The notes beneath the pieces are model-generated. The model did not search any database. It had not been told where the DNA came from and saw nothing but the letters and a program-made list of their open reading frames with translations. Source: Bacteroidota bacterium (GTDB lineage Bacteria; Bacteroidota; Bacteroidia; Bacteroidales; JAAAOM01). From it: a DNA stretch of 64,000 nt. This document shows positions 55,555 to 64,000 of this stretch, piece after piece; within the stretch, counting starts at the first letter, position 1, and each line of letters opens with the position of its first letter. Both the position numbers and the translations under genes were made by a program. The DNA is taken from NCBI GenBank assembly GCA_009908855.1, contig JAAAOM010000003.1:1-64000 (forward strand), given 5' to 3'.

Positions 55555-56121
55555 TTATTCTCTATACATCATTTTAATACTCAACCCCAGAGGAGATGAC
55601 CAACCTTCTTTATCCGTCAGGTTAATATAAAAATGATAGTCTCCTTCATCCAATTGGCCCTTATTGGTTTCAGCGGGTATTTCAATGGATAAATCAGTAG
55701 TGTATTCACTTTTCCCTGTCGGAATTGAATATTCCTGGATAAAAACAAAGGGATTTTCGGGTGTTTTAACTGGCGAAAGGTTGCATTCAGTGATTTCAAA
55801 ACTGTGTGAATGATGGTCAAAGTTATTGTGTATATCCACGCTAAATGAGCCCAACTCGACATTATCCGAGAATTTTGCTTTCAGAGTGAATGTTTCGCCA
55901 AAATAAATCGTATCACAGTTAACAGGGAATGCTCCGGGAATATCTAAATTAATGACGGGCTTTTCTGTGTCTTCATCATTGTTTTCTTCACACGAAAAGC
56001 AAATGATAAATATGAGAATTACAGGTAGAATTTTAATTTTTTTCATGATAGTATTCTTTTTCATTTTGTAGAAACCAGGCCAATCCTTAATGAATTGGCC
56101 TGTGGTTAAATTTTTATTCAA
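55555..56121 (-). CDS. DUF4625-like lipoprotein
   Basis: Lipobox ILIFIICFSCEEN; NVELGSFSVDIHNNFDHHSHSFE, EGDYHFYINLTDKEGWSSPLGLSIKM; overlaps the start of the region's upstream gene by 8 bp. Confidence 0.75.
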   Translation of the reverse strand: MNKNLTTGQFIKDWPGFYKMKKNTIMKKIKILPVILIFIICFSCEENNDEDTEKPVINLDIPGAFPVNCDTIYFGETFTLKAKFSDNVELGSFSVDIHNNFDHHSHSFEITECNLSPVKTPENPFVFIQEYSIPTGKSEYTTDLSIEIPAETNKGQLDEGDYHFYINLTDKEGWSSPLGLSIKMMYRE

Positions 56122-56926
56122 TTAGATCAATATGGCCTGATACTACTTTTTCGTTGCCTTCAGAATCCAGGACAACAATCTCCACATGGTATTCGCCTAA
56201 TGGTGCAGAATCATCTATGGAAATGGTCTGGCTTGCTGAAGCAGAGTTAAGACCATTAAAGCCTTCGGTAAATTCATTATCGATGAGTTTCACTTCATCC
56301 TCTTCGTTGCCACTTTCCGGATGGTTATGAACCTCAATGCTGTATTTATCCAATGTACCATGGGTTACCGAAGCATCAAATGAAATATCGAATGAACCAT
56401 TGGCTTTGGATACATCATGTTCGTCGTTATTGATGGAAAGGTTCGAAATTTCAATATTTGATTCTTCTTCCATGATTTCAAGTTCATCCTCAAAGCTTGC
56501 CTGGTTGCCTTCCATATCGGTAACCACAAAATGGAAATGGTAATGACCCGGTTCGGCATGATCACCTATTAAGATATGTTTGTGGAATGTTGTGTTTTTC
56601 AATCCCGAAAACTCCGTATAGGTAGAATCATATTCCCATGCTTCATGTTCGTGTTCTCTTTCATGCTCATGTTCTTCCTCATGTTCATGCTCGCCTTCGG
56701 GATGGATCTCAATTTTAATGTTATCAATTTTTCCTTCAGCTTCGATTACCGCCTCAATGTGCATATCTCCTCCAACATGGGCAGAATGACTATTGGGGTT
56801 GTCGTGTCCGCTGCCGTACTCAATACTATTGATGACGGGTTTTGCTACATCCTCGTCTTTTTCGCATGAGGTAATAAAAATACCTGTAACGAAGATTAGC
56901 GCCATAATTAAAACTCTTGTGTTCAT
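56114..56926 (-). CDS. DUF4625-like histidine-rich lipoprotein
   Basis: Lipobox IFITSCEKD; HPEGEHEHEEEHEHEREHEHEAWEYD; HKHILIGDHAEPGHYHFHFVVTDMEGN; two related domains. Confidence 0.8.
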   Translation of the reverse strand: MNTRVLIMALIFVTGIFITSCEKDEDVAKPVINSIEYGSGHDNPNSHSAHVGGDMHIEAVIEAEGKIDNIKIEIHPEGEHEHEEEHEHEREHEHEAWEYDSTYTEFSGLKNTTFHKHILIGDHAEPGHYHFHFVVTDMEGNQASFEDELEIMEEESNIEISNLSINNDEHDVSKANGSFDISFDASVTHGTLDKYSIEVHNHPESGNEEDEVKLIDNEFTEGFNGLNSASASQTISIDDSAPLGEYHVEIVVLDSEGNEKVVSGHIDLIE

Positions 56927-56953
56927 AATTTTAGATTTAATGGTTATACATAT

Positions 56954-62094: not shown

Positions 62095-62099
62095 AGTTC

Positions 62100-63149
62100 C
62101 TAAATATGTATTTCGAAAGCAGTTATCTTGCCATTTTCTGTACCAGCGTAGACCACACTTTCGTCTGTATTAACCAACGTTGTTGAAATTGCACCTTCCA
62201 CTAAATAGCTGCTTATCGAATTGGTCGTCTGATCAGGCATGTAAAACAGTAAAAATCCTCTATTTGTAGCAGCGATGAGTATATTGTTCTTATAATGAAT
62301 GCAGGTGATTTTTCCCATCCCACAATTTAATTGAATTGGTGATTTTCCTATCGGTGGACCATCTATAAAATCCCAGATCACAATTTGATCATTGTTACTT
62401 AATGCTAATAACCGACTATTTTCAGTCCAACAAATGCAATTTATTTTAGTCGGAAAACCACTAATTTGAAATTGGTTATCTTTTTCAAAAGGGTATGGCC
62501 AAAAATGCAGACAATTTTCTTGAGTACTGCTGCAAATAAATTTCTTATCGGGACTCCATGCTAATTTTAACAGGGACGTTTTCCAGGGAAAACTTTTGTA
62601 TGCTTCAAAATCATTTTCATTATATTCTCTGATTTCTCCATAATTTGAAACCAGAAATGATCCCTGGTTATAAACGATGTAACTGATTGTACTTGTGAAA
62701 GACTCATCAATTTTAATAAGCTTATATGTTTTGTCATCCGTTTTAAAGAAGTATAATTTTTTACCATTTGAGGCAAGCAGACTATCTCCCTTGTCGTTCA
62801 TACAAATATGCTCAAACCAGCCCTTATCGTTATTTATGCAAGTTGAATTAAGCTTGGTGTCGGACAAGAGAAGTCCTTTATTGGTGCCTAAAACAAAAAT
62901 ATCCATTATCGGATGATAACATGCTGTGAAAACACTAAATACATCAAGTTGTGTTTTTCTAAGAAAACTCCCATCTGACGCTAACAAAACACATATATTC
63001 CCGGCGGTTCCAATAGTGATAATTTTATCGTGGGAATGAGAAATGAAAATTTTGAGAAGATAATCTTCTGTATTTGATTCCCACAGTTTTGCCTCTGCGG
63101 TTTCCATATTAATGTAGTTCATAGTGGTTTCTTGCTTCATACCAAACAT
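62100..63149 (-). CDS. WD40/beta-propeller-like protein
   Basis: Repeating ~40-aa units: KIFISHSHDKIITIGTAGNICVLLASDGSFL, KLAWSPDKKFICSSTQENCLHFWPYPF, CICWTENSRLLALSNNDQIVIWDFIDG, VVYAGTENGKITAFEI. Confidence 0.8.
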   Translation of the reverse strand: MFGMKQETTMNYINMETAEAKLWESNTEDYLLKIFISHSHDKIITIGTAGNICVLLASDGSFLRKTQLDVFSVFTACYHPIMDIFVLGTNKGLLLSDTKLNSTCINNDKGWFEHICMNDKGDSLLASNGKKLYFFKTDDKTYKLIKIDESFTSTISYIVYNQGSFLVSNYGEIREYNENDFEAYKSFPWKTSLLKLAWSPDKKFICSSTQENCLHFWPYPFEKDNQFQISGFPTKINCICWTENSRLLALSNNDQIVIWDFIDGPPIGKSPIQLNCGMGKITCIHYKNNILIAATNRGFLLFYMPDQTTNSISSYLVEGAISTTLVNTDESVVYAGTENGKITAFEIHI

Positions 63150-64000
63150 TTTTCAAAACTTTCTTTCAATTCACCCCTGTCCAGATTTCTACCTATAAAT
63201 ATCAACTGGTTTTTAGGTTGTTCCATATCCTTCCAGTATCTATCGGGTAAGGCATCAAAAAGCATGTGTACACCCTGAAAAACAATGCGTCGAGACTCTC
63301 CTTCTATATAAAGCACTCCTTTGCTTCGGAATATATCTGGTCCTTTTGTTCGCAGCAAATCACTAATTTAGCGATCAAACTGATTTTCGTCCAACGGCCG
63401 TATACTTTCCAAACCAATGCTTGTAACCTCCTCGTCATGGGTATGAGTGTGTTCAATTTCATGAACAACTAAGGGAATTACCGGGACACTCCCATTGTAA
63501 AGAGTCATCTTGAATTCATCAGGCCCGTGTTCTGTAAAAATGGTTACGTTATTCAATTCTGCTGTATGGAATTTAAAGAAGTTTTTTTCATTGAAAAGAG
63601 GAAGGCGATAATGACTGTTGAACTTGAGTTGAATATTGTTTTGGACATCTTCTGCCGTATTGCTAAAAAGGATAGTCGCTTGTTTTTTGAGTTCCTCTAG
63701 TTTTTTATACCCCGGCAGTAATGCAATATCCATATAATCATCCGGGCCTTTCTCGAGGCTCAACTCATACTCACCTGGTTTCAATTCAAATTGTGTGATC
63801 GCCTCAAATGGATATTCTTCTTCTGCAAATAAAGGGTTTAGTTCAATTTTTCTATCCAGATTAAAAGCTTGAATATTTAGTATCTTTTTTAGATCAATAT
63901 TTGTATGTGATGTTCTGTAGACTGTGCAAAGCGAATTCATGCTATTTATTTTCTTTTCCAACACATTAAGTTCGTCTACAGATACCAAATCTGTTTTATT
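63137..64000 (-). pseudogene. CobW/COG0523-family GTPase, partial at right edge, reading frame interrupted by one in-frame TAA (63368-63370)
   Basis: Minus-strand frame from the edge: NKTDLVSVDELNVLEKK (G4 NKxD), ...HTHTHDEEVTSIGLESIRPLDENQFDR*ISDLLRTKGPDIFRSKGVLYIEGESRRIVFQGVHMLFDALPDRYW (CobW_C). Both halves share one frame. Confidence 0.85.

Follow-up and report, generated by a model that had tools for sequence, protein, structure and literature searches.

Gene clusters that bring together Zur, COG0523 GTPases, extra copies of genes for zinc enzymes and an outer-membrane receptor, and in which COG0523 subfamily 5 stands beside a WD40 protein, were described by Haas et al. 2009 (PMC2770081) in Proteobacteria, Bacilli and Cyanobacteria. 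COG0523-WD40 pairs and zinc-sparing paralogues are already known from that work, and its nine zinc-sparing enzyme families include ThrRS, CysRS, HisI and QueD but not dCTP deaminase. We analysed a 64,000-nucleotide stretch (the window), the first 64 kb of the 144-kb contig C75 in a draft genome of the Bacteroidota (3.35 Mb, about 90% complete); positions above 64000 are contig coordinates. Genes in the last part of this window and just upstream of it share all of the above components with the described clusters, and differ from them in belonging to Bacteroidota, in their regulatory box and in carrying a dCTP deaminase (DCD), a Mog protein, an exported superoxide dismutase (SOD), DUF4625 lipoproteins, a small protein ending in RAPP and a 63-amino-acid protein. 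With a probability of about 0.83, a single Zur-repressed operon for zinc starvation, ~13 kb long, would run from contig position 68598 to 55555, and the window genes would make up its distal two-thirds.

The association of ZagA with FolE is known from Bacillus subtilis. The locus shares with such ZigA/YciC/ZagA-type arrangements a COG0523 protein (no. 2) that matches the ZigA model NF038288 over its full length and sits two genes from FolE, but its score is slightly under the cut-off (565.9 bits against 600) and the FolE is of the zinc type. The bifunctional dCTP deaminase/dUTPases 4xjc and 1ogh, which are housekeeping enzymes, are the best solved relatives of the DCD and have the GRSS(I/L)GR and TAG(F/W) motifs in common with it; unlike them, the DCD here lies in a putative Zur operon, with a zinc dCMP deaminase encoded elsewhere. 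The best solved relative of the TonB-dependent receptor is the zinc receptor ZnuD of Neisseria (PDB 4rdr, 1.8e-21), with which it also shares the zinc-island setting. It differs from ZnuD by an N-terminal carboxypeptidase-like domain and by its DUF4625 lipoprotein partners, and it scores far under the cut-off of the ZnuD model NF038289 (148.5 of 950 bits).

The first-pass annotation of the window, whose named genes all exist and lie on the minus strand, had covered part of the unit; six more co-directional genes, Zur first, precede them at 64463-68598. In the order of transcription the series reads:

68188-68598 (contig), minus strand: Zur, Fur family (PF01475, 40.1 bits, cut-off 23.1)
67173-68171 (contig), minus strand: COG0523 GTPase no. 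3
66772-67176 (contig), minus strand: MerC-like protein (PF03203, 60.8 bits)
65878-66591 (contig), minus strand: FolE
65690-65881 (contig), minus strand: 63-amino-acid open reading frame (ORF) without annotation
64488-65693 (contig), minus strand: COG0523 GTPase no. 2, ZigA-like (NF038288)
63137 to contig 64462 (window part 63137..64000), minus strand: COG0523 GTPase no. 1, with the GCICC metal motif and an HTHTHD stretch
62100..63149, minus strand: WD40 beta-propeller, partner of COG0523 no. 1
61561..62094, minus strand: DCD (TIGR02274)
61032..61571, minus strand: homologue of MogA-type molybdopterin adenylyltransferase (NF006932; PDB Mog 3k6a)
60108..60788, minus strand: exported Fe/Mn-SOD (PF00081/PF02777)
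59941..60108, minus strand: 55-amino-acid ORF, probable remnant
59525..59920, minus strand: small exported Cys/His protein of 131 amino acids with C-terminal RAPP
56954..59371, minus strand: ZnuD-like TonB-dependent receptor
56114..56926, minus strand: His-rich DUF4625 lipoprotein 1, two DUF4625 domains, with HEHEEEHEHEREHEHE (PF15418, 3.1e-33)
55555..56121, minus strand: DUF4625 lipoprotein 2 (PF15418, 2.6e-38)

Adjacent genes overlap or are at most 27 bases apart, save for gaps of 180 bases (MerC-FolE), 243 bases (Mog-SOD) and 153 bases (RAPP protein-receptor), and the series is bordered upstream by a macro-domain-like gene on the opposite strand, from 68943. The overlaps first reported within the window hold in part. 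The 13-bp overlap between the CobW (COG0523 no. 1) and propeller genes exists only with read-through of a TAA, as the CobW gene is split, and its start lies beyond the window at 64462; the 8-bp overlap of the lipoprotein genes holds with a TTG start and turns into a gap if the in-frame ATG 57 bases downstream is used; the SOD gene does overlap the 55-amino-acid ORF, by 1 base, but the latter is probably a remnant.

Regulator and boxes

The 344 bases preceding Zur hold two tandem palindromes of the form TTGCAACANTGTTGCAA, namely AAATGCAACAATGTTGCATTT and TTGCATCATTGTTGCAAT, at 68618-68634 and 68655-68671. Together they span the -33 and -7 elements of a Bacteroidota-type promoter, GTTG-N18-TATATTTG, which is the only good match to such a promoter in any gap of the gene series. 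A box matrix made from 22 sites of other genomes, with the host's own sites excluded, gives these two sites the highest and second-highest scores genome-wide (32.3 and 26.9 bits), while the next-best genomic site, inside a gene, scores 19.6 bits and the best across three random genomes 21.4 bits. Boxes had been proposed upstream of 64000, where they are found, and also in the gaps 59372-59524 and 60789-61031, in neither of which the box search found one. A literature search returned no experimentally proven Zur box for Bacteroidota.

Boxes of the same type head Zur-COG0523 units at four other loci from the order (L041, L050, L052 and L055), and in L041 a ZIP transporter comes after Zur-COG0523. 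The box is also found ahead of COG0523-WD40 operons in Flavobacteriia and lake metagenomes (L058-L060, L062, L089, L092, L098-L100 and L104), ahead of a ZigA-like gene and the 63-amino-acid gene in L172, and in all seven loci that have a co-directional Zur ahead of a receptor gene and two DUF4625 genes (L156, L162, L164-L168). Among the latter, L167 joins the front half of the host operon to its back half, since a single row there contains boxes, remains of Zur and COG0523, MerC, the ZigA-like COG0523 no. 2, a second box, Zur, the receptor and both DUF4625 genes. Co-direction alone would be weak; what lifts the pattern above chance is that other genomes, Bacteroidota included, show the box, the gene order and the neighbourhood again.

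The same loci bear on whether the series forms two units, a Zur operon ending after Mog and, downstream, a separately controlled uptake unit from SOD to lipoprotein 2. The 243-base gap at 60789-61031, the separate Zur and box carried by the receptor-DUF4625 series of relatives and a decayed lipoprotein-lipoprotein-SOD copy elsewhere in the genome (C36) speak for such a division, which we consider possible though doubtful given that the gap holds neither a box nor a good Bacteroidota-type promoter nor a terminator-like site. Moreover, relatives place the two kinds of unit under one regulator, and even two units would thus have a zinc-related function.

The host regulator is under every Fur-subfamily cut-off (best: the PerR model, 48 of 180 bits), and its metal is therefore deduced from context. 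It could be a Fur or PerR, and the island one for iron or manganese, given these indecisive models and the frequency of Fe/Mn-SOD and TonB receptors in iron regulons. This is very improbable in view of the three COG0523 GTPases, one of them ZigA-like (566 bits), of a receptor that matches ZnuD best, of the ZIP transporter in L041 and of known zinc-sparing paralogues behind a box of the same type in L058 and L092. Judged from these sequences, no other metal is nearly as likely as zinc. The initial suggestion of an operon for low-metal uptake, chaperoning and enzyme sparing is largely supported by the Zur gene and tandem boxes at its head, by the ZnuD relative and by a DCD found among zinc-sparing paralogues, and may now be sharpened to zinc.

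Uptake genes and COG0523 GTPases

Of 301 genomes of the order, 57 have DUF4625 genes that pass the cut-off. A receptor related to the one in the window adjoins DUF4625 genes in 19 of 20 fetched loci, and at the receptor 15 of the 20 DUF4625 loci encode a small exported His/Cys protein with C-terminal RAPP (or RGPP). By its sequence the 131-amino-acid protein of the window belongs to this RAPP kind and is a predicted partner of the TonB receptor. A search of the PDB with DUF4625 gave no match. A second TonB receptor (34% identical) together with two DUF4625 lipoproteins is present at C53:205-3577, where the upstream part is cut off by the contig end.

The 55-amino-acid ORF resembles no more than the C-terminal end of a 161-amino-acid exported protein of L055 (43% over 46 residues, L055:13467-13952), which is why we regard it as a probable remnant. 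In L055 that protein stands behind an ABC transporter that has a His-rich loop: at L055:11454-13952, after Zur and two COG0523 genes, come an ABC ATPase, a permease with a Cys/His-rich loop and the 161-amino-acid protein, a candidate zinc transporter.

COG0523 no. 1 has the P-loop GFLGSGKT and the GCICC motif, with similar motifs in no. 2 and no. 3, and is 61-63% identical to the WD40-linked COG0523 proteins of Flavobacteriia. The COG0523-WD40 pair occurs in 19 genome loci and 47 metagenome loci from several phyla, and where the contig is long enough the WD40 gene is nearly always adjoined by COG0523; on this comparative evidence the two are an old pair. The propeller, left unexplained at first, is accounted for as the WD40 partner of subfamily 5 already on record. 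Its structure model is confident (predicted local distance difference test, pLDDT, 92.7), and on searching the PDB every WD40 protein matches, as expected of a generic propeller, with no function indicated. A single-protein scan of genome contigs with WD40 gave no match and an alignment-based search succeeded; in 40 relatives of the order only weak generic propellers were found.

COG0523 no. 1 is interrupted by an in-frame TAA at 63368-63370 (codon 365), where all 19 aligned relatives have Trp, and this may be a true nonsense mutation or an assembly error. Together with the 55-amino-acid remnant and degenerate second copies on C36, the codon raises the question of whether the operon is decaying and no longer fully working in the host lineage. 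We find this improbable: all other frames are open, the CobW_C domain past the TAA (63137-63364, PF07683, 1.1e-19) and the WD40 gene downstream are intact, and the one aberrant codon could be an error of the draft assembly.

The host FolE retains CEHH and HLCV, the zinc ligands of this enzyme, and hence is not a metal-free form; it is rather a candidate client or back-up, and the genome carries another FolE on C27. The 63-amino-acid protein has 711 relatives and an invariant C12, C17 and H52 (Cys2-His). It matched no Pfam or NCBIfam family, and its confident four-helix model found no fold match in the structure search. In all four loci with visible context (C75:65690-65881 on the window contig, L058:617-820, L172:9404-9646 and L113:5849-6091) the family lies within COG0523 islands; the hosts are Bacteroidota and one probable proteobacterium.

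Candidate zinc-sparing enzymes and MogA

The DCD passes TIGR02274 (111.6 bits, cut-off 92.8) and, compared with PDB chains, scores 79 and 67 bits against dUMP-forming enzymes and 40 bits against the 193-amino-acid E. coli-type chain 1xs1. It thus appears nearest in sequence to the dUMP-forming bifunctional type. The order WD40-DCD is kept in L058, L089-L095, L097, L102 and L103, where DCD identity falls to 75% among these loci and is 65-67% to the window DCD. Where long enough, these islands add ThrRS, NicO-like proteins, FolE, Zur and CysRS, with a HisI-like gene also in L092; in L058 and L092 the DCD stands behind the box together with ThrRS, HisI-like or QueD, FolE, CysRS and Zur. The full rows of the two (L092:451-10250 and L058:825-11330, from lakes and other Flavobacteriia) comprise the box, ThrRS, two NicO-like proteins, a ferredoxin-like protein, COG0523, WD40, DCD, YidD, HisI-like or QueD, FolE, Zur and CysRS.

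The host genome also encodes a zinc-type dCMP deaminase with the motif HAE..PCxxC (C73:9229), and of 57 genomes in which this enzyme has a close orthologue, the host alone also has a DCD. Ordinary DCD loci contain zinc genes in none of nine cases. A FolE-CysRS-DCD row in L077 has no box and its genome no close dCMP deaminase, and it was counted as weak support only. Searching the literature for dCTP deaminase with zinc and Zur yielded only off-topic papers. These observations suggest that the DCD may supply dUMP when the zinc dCMP deaminase fails.

The gene first labelled MoaB scores as MogA (NF006932, 236.8 bits, cut-off 158) and reaches 241 bits against the PDB Mog 3k6a. In the ~90% complete genome we did not find MoaA (PF06463), MoaC (PF01967), MoeA (PF03453) or the PF00384 molybdopterin oxidoreductases, while MoaA is present in all 16 other genomes that have a close Mog (at least 52%). 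A moa operon might sit in the 10% of the genome that the draft lacks, but since four families are missing, an orphan Mog is the likelier case. Mog was also tried as a part of zinc clusters in Bacteroidota relatives and rejected, as it is not beside zinc genes there. At C25:18790-19674 a MOSC-MoaB-like fusion protein is encoded, and no other molybdenum-cofactor genes were found in the genome.

DCD and Mog could be passengers, brought in by horizontal transfer or operon insertion and without a role in zinc shortage. Mog's surroundings in Bacteroidota relatives would fit this, as would DCDs of ~70% identity that lie in ordinary settings in two of three other genomes (L078, with PyrE, and L079). 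We hold it to be unlikely, as the WD40-DCD order persists despite DCD divergence, ordinary DCD loci lack zinc genes and, in L105, Zur-like and COG0523-WD40 genes stand close to a 58% Mog homologue. As for a true switch, in which at low zinc a Zur-controlled, metal-free DCD would take over from the zinc dCMP deaminase as the source of dUMP (and hence dTTP), in an operon that also holds the Cys2-His family and a MogA with a use other than the molybdenum cofactor, we would give it an even chance.

The exported SOD is 58.5% identical to the cytosolic SOD on C26, and the genome encodes SodC (C21:97524); judging from these sequences, replacement of SodC by the exported Fe/Mn-SOD is plausible. A decayed second copy of the DUF4625 lipoproteins and exported SOD, with the SOD broken in two frames, lies at C36:22524-24590. 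In the 20 DUF4625 loci SOD was not seen as a conserved neighbour.

Proposed response to zinc shortage

Gene content, boxes, promoter and the conservation of box and neighbours were computed here, and on them we infer the following scheme. When zinc is ample, the Fur-family protein would bind it, and Zn-Zur would sit on the two tandem boxes over the -33 and -7 elements of a single promoter; under zinc shortage the operon would open as one transcript. The RAPP protein, the ZnuD-like receptor and the two DUF4625 lipoproteins would then capture zinc and move it inward across the outer membrane, and the three COG0523 GTPases, of which no. 1 has its WD40 scaffold, would deliver it to chosen clients, e.g. 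the second, zinc-type FolE. MerC and the 63-amino-acid protein perhaps also carry zinc. Meanwhile, dUMP would come from DCD instead of the zinc dCMP deaminase, and Cu,Zn-SodC would have a substitute in the exported Fe/Mn-SOD.

Several points weigh against this scheme. Besides the regulator's low subfamily scores and the nonsense codon in COG0523 no. 1, no inner-membrane zinc importer was found within the operon, Mog does not suit a zinc-only story, SOD is beside these genes only in the host genome (in the window and in the decayed copy), and the three longer gaps could conceal further promoters or ends.

New here are a bifunctional-type DCD within a Zur island, an arrangement found again in Flavobacteriia with ThrRS, FolE and CysRS alongside; DUF4625 lipoproteins and a small RAPP protein as putative zinc-uptake partners; the 63-amino-acid family; and the orphan MogA. 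The sensing and survival of zinc shortage in Bacteroidota are little described, and the locus offers an operator motif for this phylum that is open to test, links DUF4625 lipoproteins and RAPP proteins to zinc uptake and makes the 63-amino-acid family a candidate zinc-stress protein. A metal-free nucleotide enzyme would also join the few zinc-sparing swaps listed so far; if true, zinc sparing would reach DNA-precursor synthesis.

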